Shown here piece after piece: positions 705-28,147 of a stretch of 30,180 nucleotides of DNA (position 1 is its first letter; every line of letters starts with the position of its first letter). The notes beneath the pieces are model-generated. The model ran no database searches. It was not told the origin of the DNA and saw nothing but the letters and a program-made list of their open reading frames with translations. Source of the DNA: a virus; IMG/VR virus record IMGVR_UViG_3300011416_000029, positions 1 through 30,180 of that record. One strand, 5' to 3'. The position numbers were made by a program, and so were the translations under genes.

Positions 705-759
705 ATTTGGTGGTTACGATCCCGCAACGTATTTTTGATTTCTAAACAACAAACAAATG
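705..759 (+). promoter_or_regulatory. Repeated early promoter/leader module, copy 1
   Basis: A -33 box TTTG at 706-709, a 20-base spacer and a -7 box TATTTTTG at 730-737 match the Bacteroidota promoter form TTTG-N19-21-TAnnTTTG. The spacer holds GGTTACGA (712-719). A fixed A-rich leader, TTTCTAAACAACAAACAA, runs up to the ATG at 757. All 55 bases from ATTTGG to the ATG are identical to copy 2 at 996-1050. Confidence 0.85.
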
Positions 760-990
760 AAAAGCATAAAAGACCTAAAAACCGGCGATCGTTTCATGTA
801 CTTTGGCGCAAAATTTCAAGCCACGGCGGATGCCACCATTTACGCGCAGTATGGCCAAATAAAGTATTATAAAATCGGTTGCGTTGGTTTCGATAACGCG
901 CAAGCGGATGATAAATCCATCATCAGCAAAACCGTAAACAATTTAACAAGTTTAACCGGGTTGGATACCACGCGTTTTGTAACTCTTTAA
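757..990 (+). CDS. Small hypothetical early protein
   Basis: A 77-residue protein. It starts MKSIKDLKTGDRFMYFGAKF, a pattern that resembles the opening strands of small beta-barrel phage proteins (K-DLK-GDRF). I cannot assign a family. It lies directly behind promoter copy 1 with the shared leader, and is followed immediately by copy 2, so it looks like a single-gene transcription unit. No Cys pair, signal peptide or membrane segment that would suggest a role is evident. Confidence 0.65.
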   Translation: MKSIKDLKTGDRFMYFGAKFQATADATIYAQYGQIKYYKIGCVGFDNAQADDKSIISKTVNNLTSLTGLDTTRFVTL

Positions 991-995
991 AATAA

Positions 996-1050
996 ATTTG
1001 GTGGTTACGATCCCGCAACGTATTTTTGATTTCTAAACAACAAACAAATG
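996..1050 (+). promoter_or_regulatory. Repeated early promoter/leader module, copy 2
   Basis: It is identical to copy 1 over 55 bases: TTTG at 997-1000, a 20-base spacer with GGTTACGA at 1003-1010, TATTTTTG at 1021-1028, and the A-rich leader up to the ATG at 1048. Confidence 0.85.
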
Positions 1051-1341
1051 GCAAAAATTACTCTCACCACGGTTAAAAGTTTCATTAAGAAAAACAACGG
1101 CGCGTTGTGGATCAACGTTAAATCTAAATTTTCCGGTATGACGGATGGTTGCGAAAGCCAACACGGCGGATTTCAGACGGCCGAAATGACGGACGAATAC
1201 CGCCAACACCGCCACGGCGTCGCCGGCGCGTGGTTTGTGGGATCATCCCGCGATTACTTTACCGCATACGACGCCGATGGTTTTACCGGTATCGAAGTTT
1301 ACAATTGTTGCGGAAAGTTCATTTTAGCAATCAAAAAATAA
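1048..1341 (+). CDS. Small hypothetical early protein with a conserved-looking GAWFVGSSRDYF core
   Basis: A 97-residue protein of unknown function. The N-terminal helix (TLTTVKSFIKKNNG) is followed by a beta-rich part with FSGMTDGCE, GAWFVGSSRDYF and IEVYNCCGKFILAI. The regular alternation of aromatic and glycine residues suggests a compact folded domain. It is expressed from promoter copy 2. The next gene begins eight bases behind the stop and so is probably in the same transcript. No catalytic motif can be named. Confidence 0.65.
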   Translation: MAKITLTTVKSFIKKNNGALWINVKSKFSGMTDGCESQHGGFQTAEMTDEYRQHRHGVAGAWFVGSSRDYFTAYDADGFTGIEVYNCCGKFILAIKK

Positions 1342-1348
1342 TCATCCC

Positions 1349-1540
1349 ATGCAAATTAAAGATCCATACGAAAGCGCATTTAATAAACTCTATTTTGTAA
1401 ACTTGTTTTTGTCTAAAGGATCGAAGAAAACCGGGTTTACCGACGCCAAAAAAGCGTATCCGATAATGGGCGCCATCGCCGAAAAATTGACCGAAACCGA
1501 ATTAAAAGTATTAATCCGTAACATTGAAAACCTGTTATAA
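1349..1540 (+). CDS. Small hypothetical early protein
   Basis: A 63-residue, probably all-helical basic protein ending in a leucine-rich helix (LTETELKVLIRNIENLL). No family is recognised. The start ATG is preceded by CATCCC and lies eight bases after the previous stop, and the downstream gene starts two bases after this stop. It is therefore an internal gene of the operon that begins at promoter copy 2. Confidence 0.6.
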   Translation: MQIKDPYESAFNKLYFVNLFLSKGSKKTGFTDAKKAYPIMGAIAEKLTETELKVLIRNIENLL

Positions 1541-1541
1541 T

Positions 1542-1877
1542 ATGACAAGAGAAGAAAGAAAAATGGAAACGCAATTTAACGAAATGCTAAAACGCCACGG
1601 CCACGCATTAGTACACGACAATCCACCGCCGCCGCCGCAACCAAAGTACGCCAACGAAGTATTATACGCCGCCCAACGTTTCGGGTTGGATCCCGCAAAC
1701 GTTGTATGGTACAATTGCGGCACGTGTTACGACCGGATCGGCGTACGCACCAAAGCCGATGCGGATAAAGTATCGGCAAAGGTAAAAGGATCCACGGCCA
1801 ATGGCGGAATGTTGGACGGGATGCCATTGGGTGGGCAAAGTAGGCACAACGACGGCACGTACGAAATTTATTGCTAA
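1542..1877 (+). CDS. Hypothetical protein with a proline run
   Basis: A 111-residue protein. I chose the ATG at 1542 because an in-frame ATG at 1524 would overlap the previous gene by 17 bases. A charged N-terminal helix leads to five consecutive prolines (residues 28-32) and then a segment with LYAAQRFGLDPANVVWYNCGTCYDRIGV, which contains a CGTC pair. The C-terminal part is Gly/Met-rich and ends in Cys. The CGTC pair might be redox-active or bind metal, but no known fold is recognised. The stop codon directly abuts the ATG of the next gene. Confidence 0.6.
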   Translation: MTREERKMETQFNEMLKRHGHALVHDNPPPPPQPKYANEVLYAAQRFGLDPANVVWYNCGTCYDRIGVRTKADADKVSAKVKGSTANGGMLDGMPLGGQSRHNDGTYEIYC

Positions 1878-2132
1878 ATGTATAAACTATTAAGGATTGA
1901 AACGGGCGCCAAAGTTGGCGCCCATTACCATTACAAAGTAATTGAAACGGCAACCGGGCGCCGCGTGTCCGAACGGTATTCCAACCGCCGGTACGTGGCG
2001 GCCACCATCGATGGACGGTTTTACTTTAGCCGGACGGATTTGGTTGGCAAAAACGCCCACGGCCGCCACAACGCGTGGCGCAAAAAAACGATGGGCATGG
2101 ATCCCGTGCCGGTTGCGTACGTTGAAAACTAA
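1878..2132 (+). CDS. Small basic hypothetical protein
   Basis: An 84-residue, strongly basic protein (many Arg and His) with predicted beta-strand alternation: YKLLRIETG, YHYKVIETATGRRVSERYS, RYVAATIDGRFYFSR. It starts directly behind the TAA of the preceding gene. The composition suggests nucleic-acid or phosphate contacts, but this is inference only. No relative is named. Confidence 0.6.
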   Translation: MYKLLRIETGAKVGAHYHYKVIETATGRRVSERYSNRRYVAATIDGRFYFSRTDLVGKNAHGRHNAWRKKTMGMDPVPVAYVEN

Positions 2133-2139
2133 AAAACTT

Positions 2140-2355
2140 ATGAAACTATTATTGGAGCAAAAAAAAGTGTTGCGTGTGGTCGCATTAGACGTAAATCCGG
2201 ACGGCCACCGGCGGATCCGGGCATTTGTATTACGGCGCCATGGATCGGCGTTTTACGTGTATCAGGGACGCGCACGGGTGCAGATCGAAACGTTGGACGG
2301 TTTGTTGGAAGATACGCCGGCCAACCGGCGCAAACTTCGCCGAAATATTTATTAA
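2140..2355 (+). CDS. Small basic hypothetical protein
   Basis: A 71-residue basic protein. The open frame extends upstream to 1942, but that part lies inside the previous gene, so the ATG at 2140, seven bases behind the previous stop, is preferred. The sequence looks beta-rich (VLRVVALDVNPDG, IRAFVLRRHGSAFYVYQG) and ends in an Arg-rich helix (NRRKLRRNIY). It is the last gene before promoter copy 3. The function is unknown. Confidence 0.55.
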   Translation: MKLLLEQKKVLRVVALDVNPDGHRRIRAFVLRRHGSAFYVYQGRARVQIETLDGLLEDTPANRRKLRRNIY

Positions 2356-2360
2356 AATAA

Positions 2361-2415
2361 ATTAGGTGGTTACGAAAAAGCCACCTATTTTTGTTTTCTA
2401 AACAACAAACAAATG
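2361..2415 (+). promoter_or_regulatory. Repeated early promoter/leader module, copy 3
   Basis: The -33 position reads TTAG (2362-2365), followed by a 20-base spacer with GGTTACGA at 2368-2375 and the -7 box TATTTTTG at 2386-2393. The same A-rich leader leads to the ATG at 2413. In this copy the spacer can also fold, because GGTGG and CCACC bracket it. Confidence 0.8.
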
Positions 2416-2574
2416 GAAAAATTAACAGTAATGCAGATGGCCGTAAAAATGGCAATTTTGGACGTGATCGAAAACGGTTTGACGGACACCGAAAACGTGA
2501 TCGCCTACATGGACACCGACGCGTTTAAAAAAACCGTTTCCCACTACGTTTTATTAATCAATAAAAACTTTTAA
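2413..2574 (+). CDS. 53-residue hypothetical early protein
   Basis: A short protein, MEKLTVMQMAVKMAILDVIE at the start, ending SHYVLLINKNF. It is probably one long helix followed by a short second one. The start is fixed by the shared leader of promoter copy 3, which gives more support than length alone would. The next gene begins three bases after the stop. No function is recognised. Confidence 0.6.
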   Translation: MEKLTVMQMAVKMAILDVIENGLTDTENVIAYMDTDAFKKTVSHYVLLINKNF

Positions 2575-2577
2575 GCC

Positions 2578-2817
2578 ATGGTAAAAAATTCTAAAGAAGC
2601 ATTGGCGCAGCATATTGGATGGGATCGCGACGAACTAAAAGAATACCGGTATCACGCCGGCCATACCAACTTGCCGGTGTATTCGATCGGCGACGGGTTT
2701 ATGGCAGCCACGCGCGCAAATCAAAAACCGCCCAAACACAGATCCATGGATTTTGAATGGATCGAAGTTAAGGACGCATTTATTAACGCCGCCGGGTATA
2801 AAATTTGGAAATCGTGA
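2578..2817 (+). CDS. Small hypothetical early protein
   Basis: A 79-residue protein containing HIGWDRDELKEYRYHAGHTN and a C-terminal FEWIEVKDAFINAAGYKIWK. The aromatic-rich pattern suggests a small alpha/beta domain, with no family recognised. It is the second gene behind promoter copy 3. Its TGA stop overlaps a GTG that probably starts the next gene, which is typical of translational coupling. Confidence 0.6.
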   Translation: MVKNSKEALAQHIGWDRDELKEYRYHAGHTNLPVYSIGDGFMAATRANQKPPKHRSMDFEWIEVKDAFINAAGYKIWKS

Positions 2818-3008
2818 AACAAATAATTTTTGAGTATTACGGCGCGTTTGTCGTCGTGGAAAAATCCGGCGATAAATGGGATTTCGTTATTATTAACCCT
2901 AAAACGCAAAACGAAATCCATTGCGGTTTCGATTGTCGCACGTACGACGACGCCGCCGGCGATGCGCGCGCATTTCTTCAATCATATTTCGTTTACCATA
3001 CAATTTAA
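2814..3008 (+). CDS. Small acidic hypothetical protein, GTG start
   Basis: A 64-residue protein. No ATG is available near its beginning. The GTG at 2814 overlaps the previous stop in the arrangement GTGA and is preferred over a TTG at 2805. The protein reads as a small beta-alpha domain (YYGAFVVVEKSGDKWDFVII, then DAAGDARAFLQSYF). The function is unknown. The following gene starts four bases after the stop. Confidence 0.55.
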   Translation: MKQIIFEYYGAFVVVEKSGDKWDFVIINPKTQNEIHCGFDCRTYDDAAGDARAFLQSYFVYHTI

Positions 3009-3012
3009 CCCA

Positions 3013-3642
3013 ATGACAAATCCACGCGATTTTTACGCCCTAAACATTACCGAAGATCAAATAAATAAAATGATCAAATTAACGGAAGCGGAAATGGCCG
3101 GCCAAATGGCCGACCTTGCCATTAAAGAACCACCGTTTTTGGAAGCCGAACAATTATATTTATCGTACAAACGCGATTTTGATCTAATCAAAAACGCATT
3201 AGACGACAATAAACTATTGTTGGAAAGTTTGTCCCGGTTTAAAACCAACACCAAATCCAACAAGGAAATCCGGGTTATGCGCACCACGTCCCACGTGGAC
3301 GCCAAACCGGCGAAGAAAACCCGCAATGTTAAGTGGATCAAATTGGCGGTTAATCTTCTTATCGCCGAAGATAAATACCTATCGGGCGACGATATCGTGG
3401 CCATGCTGCACAAGATCGGTGCGCCCGATATGACAGATATGCAGCGATACGCACTTAAACGAAATATGTTACGGGCGGCCGAAATCGTGATGGCCGGGAA
3501 GCGTAAAAAGAAATCGCATATCGATTCGTTGGTAATGTATAAAAACCGGTTTGGATTGCTTAGTTGGTGCCACGACGATTTCACGCCCGACGCGCACCAT
3601 ATCCGGGAATTTATGTACGACAAAGTGAAAAAAGTAATTTAA
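3013..3642 (+). CDS. Hypothetical protein, helical and basic, with a possible winged-helix-like centre
   Basis: A 209-residue protein and the largest of the small-gene region. I prefer the ATG at 3013 because the open frame upstream (from 2830) overlaps the previous gene. Residues 10-75 look like long charged helices. Residues 78-106 form a Lys/Thr-rich linker. Residues 107-160 (KWIKLAVNLLIAEDKYLSGD onward) have the helix spacing of a winged-helix-like domain, followed by the basic stretch GKRKKKSH. A DNA-binding role is plausible. A terminase small subunit is an alternative suggested only by its position upstream of the portal gene. Confidence 0.6.
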   Translation: MTNPRDFYALNITEDQINKMIKLTEAEMAGQMADLAIKEPPFLEAEQLYLSYKRDFDLIKNALDDNKLLLESLSRFKTNTKSNKEIRVMRTTSHVDAKPAKKTRNVKWIKLAVNLLIAEDKYLSGDDIVAMLHKIGAPDMTDMQRYALKRNMLRAAEIVMAGKRKKKSHIDSLVMYKNRFGLLSWCHDDFTPDAHHIREFMYDKVKKVI

Positions 3643-3698
3643 ATTTGGTGGTTACGATACCGCGCCCTATCTTTGTTTTCTAAACAACAAACAAAATG
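3643..3698 (+). promoter_or_regulatory. Repeated early promoter/leader module, copy 4
   Basis: TTTG at 3644-3647, a 20-base spacer with GGTTACGA at 3650-3657, TATCTTTG at 3668-3675, then the shared leader with one extra A before the ATG at 3696. Confidence 0.85.
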
Positions 3699-3932
3699 AC
3701 AATTTTTCAACAAATCGAAGCGGCGGCAAAAGCAAAAGGAATAAATTATTGTAATGAAGGCGACCGGATCGGCGTGGAATTATCCAACCTTATCTATTAT
3801 TGGTTTATGGATTGCGGCACGGCCGGCGTTTTATTTCGTCATCGATATAGCCAACGCACCGGCCATACCCGTCGCGGCAATATTTGTCAAGCGTACCAAA
3901 TATTGGAAAGGAAATTAGGAATAAAAGTATAA
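3696..3932 (+). CDS. Small hypothetical early protein
   Basis: A 78-residue protein with an N-terminal helix (IFQQIEAAAKAKGI), a central aromatic segment (LIYYWFMDCGTAGVLF) and a basic, Arg/His-rich C-terminal part. The order helix, hydrophobic strands, basic helix is seen, but no family is recognised. It is a single-gene unit between promoter copy 4 and a strong terminator that separates the small-gene region from the structural operon. Confidence 0.65.
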   Translation: MTIFQQIEAAAKAKGINYCNEGDRIGVELSNLIYYWFMDCGTAGVLFRHRYSQRTGHTRRGNICQAYQILERKLGIKV

Positions 3933-3937
3933 AGCAG

Positions 3938-3966
3938 ATCCGGCCAAATGGCCGGATTTTTTATTT
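3938..3966 (+). terminator. Rho-independent terminator at the end of the small-gene region
   Basis: A perfect 8-bp stem (ATCCGGCC at 3938-3945 with GGCCGGAT at 3950-3957) and a 4-base AAAT loop are followed by a T-rich tail. It ends the small-gene region just before the structural operon. Confidence 0.9.
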
Positions 3967-3996
3967 TTTCTCTACCTTCGCCCGTAAATCATCCAA
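3949..3996 (+). promoter_or_regulatory. Possible late promoter of the structural operon
   Basis: TACCTTCG at 3973-3980 differs from the Bacteroidota -7 consensus TAnnTTTG at one base. No TTTG lies at the expected -33 distance, where the terminator arm sits. Neither the GGTTACGA element nor the shared leader of the early modules is present. If used, transcription would start very close to the TTG of the portal gene. A late promoter needing another factor is possible, but this is inference. Confidence 0.3.
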
Positions 3997-22748: not shown

Positions 22749-24548
22749 ATGCCAAATATCAATTTAGCCACCATCCCTTTTAGTACGCCGATGATCCGCA
22801 CCGGTGCCGGTGCCGAACAATGGCACAATTCCACCGCACGGATCCCAAACCCGACCGAAGATCAACCCGTGGATCAGGAAAACAGCCGCGAAGTATATTA
22901 CCGTTTCCAATGGGCGCGGATCGGTGAAGCCACCGAAGGGCAATACGATTTTGGTTATTTGGATAATTTATTGCACGACGCGATCGATCACGACCAAAAA
23001 TTAAGTTTTGGAATTATGCCGTACAATAGCGACGGCGGCGATACGTCGTACGATGGCGCGTCGTCGGCGTATCCGAAGTGGCTGCACGATAAGATGCAAG
23101 CCGAAGCAAACCCGGATTGGGTTTACAACGGCGTTTGGATCGCCAATTATAATTCGCAGCATTACATAAAAGCATTACGGGATCTACATACCGCGATCCG
23201 TGAACATTTATTGACGGGTGAATACAACGGCGTAAAATATACGGACGCGGTTTTTGTTATCGATATCCGTGGTTTCGGCGATTGGGGCGAATGGCATAGC
23301 GGCACCGTGCCATGGGATAATTTCCCGAATGGACGACAACCAACCGTATCCGCACTAAAAGCGATTGTGGACGCCCATACGCAGATATTTGACCGGTGGC
23401 CACTCGTACACATGGTCGCGATATATGACGGCGGATTTACCGGTATTAATTCGTTTCCGCCGTATCCGGAACTTGCGCACTATGCGTTAATGAGCAAAAA
23501 CGATTGGGGCGATACCGGGTTTCGCAAAGATCAATACGGCGATCCGTCCGAATATTTGGGGCGATTGCTTGAACACAACGAACAAACATACGCCGGGTCG
23601 CAGCCATTTAAAAACTACATTTTAGAAAAGTGGAAAACGGCCGCCATTACCGGCGAACCATTGCCCGGATCTTTGGATATGACGGATTTAATGCGGCAAG
23701 TGCAAACCTATCATACCACGTCCATTGGAAATGGTAATTACGGGCAATATCCGTCGTCGTTGGCCACGCGCGACCGGATCCGTGCCGCGTTTGACGCGTG
23801 CGGATATAAATTACGCATTGCCGGCGGCACGTTCACCAACACGCCATCGGCCATATCGATATCGCTAAATTGGGAAAACGGCGGGATCGGCGTGGCATTG
23901 GAGCAATGGGACGTCGAATTATTAATAAAAGATAGCGGCGGCCAAATCGTCGAAACGTTGGTATCGGAGTTTACACCGTTTTTAATGTTACCCGCAACGG
24001 TGGCCGCCGTTGATTCAATTCCACTATCGGTGCCACCGGGCGATTATTCGTTGGCCGTACGCGTGGTGGATCCCAATGGGTACCGGGAACCAATGCCGTT
24101 ATATAACGACGATCGCGCCGACGATGGATCGTACGATTTGGGATCGTTCAACGTATCGGGCGAACAACCCGGCGAAAACGTGCCACCCGTGGTGGATGCC
24201 GGCGCAGATATCGAAATTACTTTGCCCAACAATAAAGCAAATTTAACCGGATCGGCCACCGATGCCGACGGCGCCGTGCAGACGGCGCGGTGGGATAAGG
24301 TTTCCGGATCCGGATGGTTACGATCGCCGCACGGCACGGTCGCCGAAGCGCGCGGACTAATGGTTGGCCAATCCGTTTTCCGTTTGACGGCCACCGATAA
24401 CCGGGGTGCCACGGCGTCCGACGACGTTACCATTACCGTATCGCCGGCCGAAACGTCGGCGCGCGTATTGGTGGACGTGTCCGTTATCACCGAAACCACC
24501 ACCGTTAAAACGTATTCGGATGGGAGTAGTGAAACCGTTAAGACCTAA
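22749..24548 (+). CDS. TIM-barrel glycoside-hydrolase-like protein with DUF4832 and PKD domains
   Basis: A 599-residue protein. Residues 1-320 look like a (beta/alpha)8 glycosidase: YYRFQWARIGEATEGQYDFG (50-69), FGIMPYNSDGGD, and VIDIRGFGDWGEWH (170-183), where Glu181 is the likely acid/base. Residues about 345-470 match the pattern of DUF4832, a beta-sandwich found behind such barrels (ISLNWENGGIGVALEQWDVE). Residues about 480-565 form a PKD/Ig-like domain (VDAGADIEITLPNNKANLTG to ATASDDVTITV). It has no signal peptide, so a virion-bound depolymerase released at lysis is likely. The substrate is unknown. The family placement is by pattern only. Confidence 0.7.
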   Translation: MPNINLATIPFSTPMIRTGAGAEQWHNSTARIPNPTEDQPVDQENSREVYYRFQWARIGEATEGQYDFGYLDNLLHDAIDHDQKLSFGIMPYNSDGGDTSYDGASSAYPKWLHDKMQAEANPDWVYNGVWIANYNSQHYIKALRDLHTAIREHLLTGEYNGVKYTDAVFVIDIRGFGDWGEWHSGTVPWDNFPNGRQPTVSALKAIVDAHTQIFDRWPLVHMVAIYDGGFTGINSFPPYPELAHYALMSKNDWGDTGFRKDQYGDPSEYLGRLLEHNEQTYAGSQPFKNYILEKWKTAAITGEPLPGSLDMTDLMRQVQTYHTTSIGNGNYGQYPSSLATRDRIRAAFDACGYKLRIAGGTFTNTPSAISISLNWENGGIGVALEQWDVELLIKDSGGQIVETLVSEFTPFLMLPATVAAVDSIPLSVPPGDYSLAVRVVDPNGYREPMPLYNDDRADDGSYDLGSFNVSGEQPGENVPPVVDAGADIEITLPNNKANLTGSATDADGAVQTARWDKVSGSGWLRSPHGTVAEARGLMVGQSVFRLTATDNRGATASDDVTITVSPAETSARVLVDVSVITETTTVKTYSDGSSETVKT

Positions 24549-24894: not shown

Positions 24895-25071
24895 TCATAC
24901 GGCGCGTTTGGATTCAGGTATTAATTTTGCGTCCACGATCAACACGTGCGCCCGGCCAAACTTTTCACGCCGAACCACGCCCGGTAATTTGTGTCCCATT
25001 TTAATTGCCTTGCGCACCGCCGCGTCCGAAATGCCGCGCATGGCGGCATATTGTTTACTTGTAAGTTTCAT
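24895..25071 (-). CDS. Small helix-turn-helix protein, excisionase/MerR-like
   Basis: This is the only convincing minus-strand gene: 58 residues, MKLTSKQYAAMRGISDAAVR at the start, then KAIKMGHKLPGVVRREKFGR. The pattern (two short helices YAAMRGIS and DAAVRKAIKMG, then a strand with LPGVVRREKFGRAHVLIVDA) is that of small MerR/excisionase-type DNA-binding proteins. Its frame is GC-rich and free of stops, unlike chance antisense frames. It is transcribed away from the replication operon, with only 92 bases between the two starts, which suggests that it regulates that operon or itself. Confidence 0.7.
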   Translation of the reverse strand: MKLTSKQYAAMRGISDAAVRKAIKMGHKLPGVVRREKFGRAHVLIVDAKLIPESKRAV

Positions 25072-25087
25072 TTAAAAAATATTTTTA

Positions 25088-25112
25088 CAAACATAGATAT
25101 TTTTTTTGGAAG
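25088..25112 (-). promoter_or_regulatory. Probable promoter of the minus-strand regulator
   Basis: On the minus strand TATGTTTG (25095 to 25088) matches the Bacteroidota -7 box TAnnTTTG. It is 16 bases upstream of the ATG at 25071. The -33 region is not a clear TTTG. It overlaps the plus-strand promoter region, so transcription in the two directions may compete. Confidence 0.5.
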
Positions 25113-25135
25113 TATCGAAAAAGAAACTATTTTTG
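25105..25135 (+). promoter_or_regulatory. Promoter of the replication operon
   Basis: TTTG at 25105-25108, a 19-base spacer and TATTTTTG at 25128-25135 match the Bacteroidota promoter form closely. The leader begins TTTTCT like the early modules but then diverges (CAAACGCTAAAACGCTAATA), and the GGTTACGA element is absent. Control therefore probably differs from that of the five repeated modules. Confidence 0.75.
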
Positions 25136-25163
25136 TTTTCTCAAACGCTAAAACGCTAATAAA

Positions 25164-27620: not shown

Positions 27621-27676
27621 ATTTGGAAAGTATGGTTACGATACCGTATCTTTGTTTTCTAAACAACAAACAAATG
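27621..27676 (+). promoter_or_regulatory. Repeated early promoter/leader module, copy 5
   Basis: TTTG at 27622-27625, a 21-base spacer, TATCTTTG at 27647-27654 and the shared leader up to the ATG at 27674. GGTTACGA (27634-27641) is present but five bases nearer to the -7 box than in the other four copies. It lies about 24 kb from copy 4. Confidence 0.8.
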
Positions 27677-28147
27677 AATACTACTTACACACTCGCAAAC
27701 GGAAAAACGGTCGAAGCTGCATTTAAATCCTTTAAAGCCGATGGCGGCGTGCATTGGCACGTTACTATCGATGGCGTGGAATACCGGGACGCGTTTACGA
27801 TGGACGCCAATAGCGTTTTTATCTGTAATAAAACCGGGCGCGTTATCGACACCAAATCCAATTTGGGATTGGTCGAATATATCGTGGCGTTACCCAAAAC
27901 CAAAATGGGTGGCGCGATCCAATTTTTTTTCCCGGAATTTCCAAACCACCCATTAAACGGAATGTACGCGTACGGTTGCGGCGCATGGGTTGGTGAAATC
28001 GACGGCAAGATGGCACGCCGGGATATCTTTGGTTTATACGACCAATACGGCCACGTGCCGGTTACTACCGAAAATTTCCGCGCCGACCGGGTTTTGGTAA
28101 AGGAATGGTTTGGCGGCGAAGTAGAATATTTTTATTTAGTAAAATGA
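27674..28147 (+). CDS. Hypothetical early protein in the replication block
   Basis: A 157-residue protein. The start is fixed by the shared leader, and an upstream in-frame start at 27623 is rejected because it lies in the promoter. It is beta-rich: YTLANGKTVEAAFKSF, HWHVTIDGVEYRDAFTMDA, ALPKTKMGGAIQFFFPEF and a Gly/aromatic-rich middle (MYAYGCGAWVG). No family is recognised. Its TGA overlaps the next ATG (ATGA). The shared promoter suggests co-regulation with the small genes at the left end. Confidence 0.65.
   Translation: MNTTYTLANGKTVEAAFKSFKADGGVHWHVTIDGVEYRDAFTMDANSVFICNKTGRVIDTKSNLGLVEYIVALPKTKMGGAIQFFFPEFPNHPLNGMYAYGCGAWVGEIDGKMARRDIFGLYDQYGHVPVTTENFRADRVLVKEWFGGEVEYFYLVK

Follow-up and report, generated by a model that had tools for sequence, protein, structure and literature searches.

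Primary-sigma promoters of the Bacteroidota have a -33 box TTTG and a -7 box TAnnTTTG (PMC7366714, PMC9723704), the latter mapped at positions -12 to -5 in Flavobacterium (PMC9723704). The phylum has no Shine-Dalgarno sequences, and an A at -3 is favorable (PMC6847099). In cluster K mycobacteriophages, the short SAS and ESAS repeats stand by the start codons of certain genes that are not homologous to each other, with a function that is unproven, and about half of the cluster K repeats have imperfect inverted repeats that have been suggested to be DNA-binding sites (PMC3203893). In cluster A mycobacteriophages, 13-bp sites called stoperators take part in regulating transcription (PMC3203893). 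For phages of the Bacteroidota, the control of early genes has been little mapped.

Here we analyze a phage DNA stretch of 30,180 bp (the window, which is a whole IMG/VR record, classed linear) in which a module of about 55 bp precedes several unrelated genes. The nearest precedents for it are Bacteroidota primary-sigma promoters and, as regards design, the cluster K SAS/ESAS repeats. With the former it shares both boxes, a 19-20 bp spacer, a short leader and the lack of a Shine-Dalgarno sequence; but the phage copies recur as a unit and have a symmetric spacer element, which is missing from Bacteroidota host promoters that share its left half. Like SAS/ESAS, the module abuts the start codons of unrelated genes, but SAS has a Shine-Dalgarno core and ESAS is a pair of 2 x 17 bp, whereas here a single 18-bp dyad lies inside a recognizable promoter, the sequence is unrelated, and the 13-bp SAS GGGATAGGAGCCC is absent from the aligned window modules. 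The dyad resembles phage Cro/C1-type operators in its length of about 18 bp, its 7-bp halves and its overlap with a promoter, and in a distant relative (G006) a Cro-like gene stands behind one such site; it differs from them in being spread over ten or more promoters, and neither the window nor a close relative (G001) yielded an HTH_3 repressor or a tyrosine integrase. The stoperators of cluster A are many repressor-type sites dispersed over the phage genome, and the sites described here are likewise many and dispersed, but they are dyads inside promoters at gene starts. A limited literature search found no published description of the module, which is weak evidence of novelty.

Module copies in the window and in related phages

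The original prediction placed five copies of the module in the window, and all five are present at its coordinates. They are listed below with matching sites in G001, a 44,465-bp contig (portal 83%) whose ends overlap by 123 bp.

705..759, + strand: copy 1; -33 box TTTGG 706-710, dyad 712-729, -7 box TATTTTTG 730-737, leader 738-756, ATG at 757 opening ORF 757-990 (77 aa)
996..1050, + strand: copy 2; dyad 1003-1020, -7 box 1021-1028, leader 1029-1047, ATG at 1048 opening ORF 1048-1341 (97 aa); matches G001 site L127:9578, downstream genes 70% identical
2361..2415, + strand: copy 3; -33 box TTAGG, dyad 2368-2385, -7 box 2386-2393, leader 2394-2412, ATG at 2413 opening ORF 2413-2574 (53 aa); G001 matching site L007:1167
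3643..3698, + strand: copy 4; dyad 3650-3667, -7 box 3668-3675, leader 3676-3695, ATG at 3696 opening ORF 3696-3932 (78 aa); G001 matching site L007:2803, also in the near-identical contig L006
27621..27676, + strand: copy 5; -33 box 27622-27626, dyad 27634-27651 (shifted 5 bp toward the -7 box), -7 box TATCTTTG 27647-27654, leader 27655-27673, ATG at 27674 opening ORF 27674-28147, immediately 5' of the DNA polymerase

A 28-base string covering the -7 box and leader, TATNTTTGNTTTCTAAACAACAAACAAA, occurs five times in the window without mismatch (at 730, 1021, 2386, 3668 and 27647) and never in 100 shuffled windows. The promoter that the copies were said to share is of the Bacteroidota type in the -7 box of all five (TAnnTTTG) and in the -33 box of four (TTTGG), but copy 3 has TTAGG; the -33/-7 spacer in the window alignment measures 20 bp in copy 5 and 19 bp otherwise. 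Copies 1 and 2, described as identical over 55 bases, are exactly so from the A before the -33 box through the ATG, and both flanks are unrelated.

G001 has 10 copies with an invariant left half of the dyad (L007:231, 1167 and 2803; L126:12978 and 13204; L127:1487, 1874, 8378, 8851 and 9578). At least six copies, one of them inverted together with its gene, are present in a third phage contig, L104. Because of its 123-bp end overlap, G001 is circular or permuted, which suggests that the window is probably a fragment of a permuted genome; about 14 kb of the non-structural arc are probably absent from it. This arc runs from a divergent control region through the exonuclease, ssDNA-binding protein, DNA polymerase, primase-helicase and terminase to the small genes before the portal. 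All modules of the window and G001 lie within it and none among the head and tail genes of either, and the L104 copies likewise lie outside the structural arc. The separation of 24 kb between the fifth copy and the others is correct as a distance, but the gap is the structural arc on a permuted fragment. The sequence supports the earlier proposal of a repeated module that links the small accessory genes with the replication block through a common control element.

The full module, with a strict -33 box and the CG/CC form of the right half, was not found in viral contigs outside this phage group, nor in any of 395 sampled genomes. Olleya phage Harreka_1 and Flavobacterium phage mumin6-1 have no comparable repeated set, and a TerL search of 248 genomes of an order around a Saprospiraceae MAG gave no match. 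Judged by a rough estimate from pattern size, most single matches to GGTGGTTACG-N9-14-TAnnTTTG in viral contigs appear to be chance, and we disregarded them.

Two other features were seen around the modules. A DnaA-box-like sequence, TGTGGATAAC, stands directly 5' of the -33 box at L126:12978, L127:1487 and L104:4660, with TGTGTATAAC at L104:4460 (- strand), and one of these four relative modules has an inverted partner; the exact DnaA box TGTGGATAA does not occur in the window. At 3930-3970 of the window, a terminator-like sequence, made up of a GC-rich inverted repeat with a T run behind it (GATCCGGCC AAAT GGCCGGATTTTTT), separates the last small gene from the portal gene.

The spacer element is half of a putative operator

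The element GGTTACGA that had been recognized in the spacer is present, but it is not complete in itself: it forms the left half of an imperfect dyad of 18 bp, GGTTACG-N4-CGnnnCC, between the -33 and -7 boxes. It occurs six times in the window against 1.56 expected, the sixth occurrence, at 24316, being intragenic. As a phage-specific signature GGTTACGA alone was ruled out, host promoters having the same left half. The dyad was examined by comparing phage copies, chosen by their left half only, with 45 distinct Bacteroidota host promoters that agree with them in left half and spacing. Symmetric positions are matched at a mean of 5.0/7 in 15 distinct phage operators versus 1.04/7 in the 45 host promoters (Mann-Whitney p 1e-9, which is indicative only and overstates independence because the copies share descent). 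Symmetry is maximal at the N4 gap (4.94 phage versus 1.02 host), and the signal drops sharply when the gap is shifted by one base or more to either side, except at the self-overlapping register -2, which is raised in host promoters too. Position 13 is G and position 17 is C in 15/15 phage operators and position 18 is C in 14/15, within a right half-site that is otherwise degenerate (4-5 of 7 in the window copies). The dyad has two properties expected of an operator, two-fold symmetry above background and overlap with the promoter, and as a predicted operator it is well supported by sequence. With GGTTACGA as its left half, a DNA-bound regulator is the stronger candidate than the RNA-binding partner originally suggested.

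The GGTTACGA element of copy 5 is 5 bp nearer the -7 box, and the whole dyad slides by 5 bp as a unit both there and at L104:5743, so the spacer element is not merely a long -33 box. In four promoters of G006 (TerL 45%), the corresponding position is taken by a different dyad, TAATNNAANNNTATTAC; this pattern, derived from these same four copies, has no matches in shuffles, and the four leaders are A-rich and not identical. The first of these promoters drives a 55-aa Cro/C1-type HTH protein (HTH_26 E 2.6e-4, slightly below the curated cut-off), the sole HTH_3 match in the G006 record. A regulator gene behind its own operator is the layout expected of a repressor-operator set and would support, by analogy, an operator in the window as well. 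Because G006 has its own dyad at that position, a turnover of operator and regulator can be tested by comparing phages.

These observations weigh on the idea that the copies are strong host-type promoters without an operator, in which TTTGGTGGTTACG would be an extended -33 box that the phage has copied from strong Bacteroidales promoters, with an incidental right half. The host form TTTGGTGGTTACG-N11-TAnnTTTG is indeed found in 49 stretches of GTDB contigs against about 2 expected by pattern size, nearly all of them Bacteroidota, and several sit just 5' of a tRNA-like sequence. In a wider genome sample, however, TTTGGTGGTT had 9 matches against 6 for the reversed control, without clear enrichment, so the host form is probably lineage-limited. 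We consider promoters without an operator quite unlikely given this result, the lack of the right half in host promoters, the sliding of the element in copy 5 and the second dyad of G006.

At L104:4460 (- strand), 4660, 4889 and 5394, GGATCC replaces the right half CGnAACC, which speaks against one shared operator; it is possibly another operator variant.

The leader diverges between phages

The leader is 96% identical among the window copies, and the original prediction had read its conservation as selection acting through an RNA-binding partner. The comparison with G001 does not bear this out: at four matching sites, identity is 100% for the left half, 88% for the -7 box, 75% for the right half, 67% for the leader, 25% for N4 and 41% upstream, and the leader figure compares with 57% for shuffled leaders. 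Kept promoters with diverged leaders had been named beforehand as refuting that reading, and this is largely the outcome; these matching-site identities led us to reject the leader as the main target of selection for most copies. G001 and L104 each have more than one leader type, the type of the window included, and the phage group as a whole has three or more. Only CACC separates the -7 box from the ATG in the G001 copy L127:8378, so that its mRNA is probably leaderless. The pair L127:8851 and L104:12917, with an identical leader, is an exception to the divergence.

The predicted 5' UTR of about 15 nt, CTAAACAACAAACAA, is set by the Flavobacterium -7 position of -12 to -5 (PMC9723704). The leader is short, A-rich and unfolded in the modelled window copies (copy 5 left out), and an A at -3 is found in 1/5 window copies. 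In viral contigs outside the phage group, the leader pattern gave one promoter-like match (L187) and three matches without a promoter.

A sixth promoter, of another type and absent from the original prediction, behaves differently.

25105..25163, + strand: sixth promoter, TTTGGAAGTATCGAAAAAGAAACTATTTTTG; leader 25136-25163, containing the direct repeat AAACGCTAAAACGCTAA; opens the early replication operon

This promoter, divergent from an HTH gene, is without the GGTTACG dyad and carries a leader of its own. Its leader (25136-25159) is 24/24 identical between the window and G001, though the downstream gene differs. This identity, like that of the leaders within the window, would fit an RNA element that a phage RNA-binding protein recognizes by its sequence. 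We regard such an element as very improbable for the module, whose matching leaders are 67% identical against 57% for shuffled ones, come in at least three types, are short and unfolded where modelled, and are dispensed with in one G001 copy. Mixed leader types, the leaderless copy and the 67% identity favor a view of the leader as an A-rich start region spreading with the cassette, and leader identity in the window looks like the product of cassette spread and the usual A-rich start context.

Gene content differs at module junctions

Copy 1 and its 77-aa gene lack a counterpart in G001, where the match is to copy 2; the identity of these two copies is confined to the module, and the gene that they flank has no G001 homologue. 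Copy 5 and L126:12978 both follow the same ssDNA-binding gene (82%) but precede different genes. L007:231 precedes an 86-aa gene, and the window homologue of that gene (84 aa) is without a module. Such differences suggest that genes may enter or leave at modules, by a mechanism that we infer to be recombination.

The repeats might then serve mainly as recombination homology for shuffling small genes, with common regulation secondary. The junctions at copies 1, 2 and 5, the module inverted with its gene in L104 and the mixture of leader types within genomes all speak for this. Simple homogenization, however, would not leave N4 and the right half as diverse within a genome as they are, nor keep the dyad where the rest varies, and as the principal function of the repeats we find recombination rather unlikely, although it is compatible with, and does not exclude, control through the dyad.

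A proposed mode of control

We favor, with a probability of about 0.6, the explanation that strong host-sigma promoters, a phage operator and an A-rich 5' UTR of about 15 nt would together make up one co-controlled regulon that is portable as a gene cassette. Each cassette would comprise a primary-sigma promoter (-33 TTTGG, -7 TAnnTTTG), an 18-bp dyad operator filling its spacer and an A/C-rich 5' UTR of about 15 nt, without a Shine-Dalgarno sequence, up to the ATG of a small gene. For the timing we infer that host RNA polymerase would transcribe all copies together at infection, expressing the small non-structural genes along with a part of the replication block; later, a phage-coded dimeric regulator, probably a repressor, would bind the spacer dyad and block the polymerase at all copies. 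Recombination between copies could insert or exchange the gene behind a cassette, because promoter, operator and start region travel as one unit of about 55 bp.

The dyad could instead bind an activator, from phage or host, that turns the promoters on at a given stage, as its conserved position relative to the promoter and its restriction to non-structural genes would allow. The region between the -33 and -7 boxes is, however, the classical place for steric repression, the dyad occupies it in near-consensus promoters, and in G006 a Cro-like HTH gene lies behind its own operator; an activator is accordingly a distinctly doubtful alternative to a repressor.

The module would offer a compact way for a phage to gain small genes already under control. 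More tentatively, and with the odds somewhat against it, the phage group may build its non-structural region from swappable start cassettes of about 55 bp (promoter, operator and 5' UTR), such that a recombined gene would acquire strong expression and the common shut-off at once, and the operator would be replaced between lineages together with its regulator. The module provides a searchable definition of a phage regulon, and it predicts transcription starts and a regulator to seek.

Candidate regulators

One candidate early regulator is encoded opposite the sixth promoter.

24895..25071, - strand: 58-aa winged-HTH-like protein; -7 box TATGTTTG on the minus strand near 25095

The protein is 74% identical in G001, where the relative has a weak HTH_17/YfeC match, and its AF2 model is a winged HTH (H-H-E-E, pLDDT 77). 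As the binder of the dyad it was rejected: it had no significant structural match, the nearest being weak ones to direct-repeat binders (BldC, Xis), and the promoter opposite which it stands is without the dyad. A Pfam search found neither HTH_3 (PF01381) nor tyrosine integrase (PF00589) in the window, a partial genome, or in the circular relative G001, which makes a classical lysogeny repressor unlikely and leaves a lytic early-to-late switch as the preferred guess.

A 68-aa Arc-like ribbon-helix-helix protein, a further candidate regulator that is not in the window, is encoded at L127:9444-9650, in a frame that crosses a module into the next gene. G001 also codes for a 49-aa HTH-like protein at L127:1717-1866, another candidate. 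Within the divergent region of the window (25069-25163), the minus-strand promoter of the HTH gene appears to overlap the plus-strand early promoter, of which the leader is conserved in G001 and the spacer is not.
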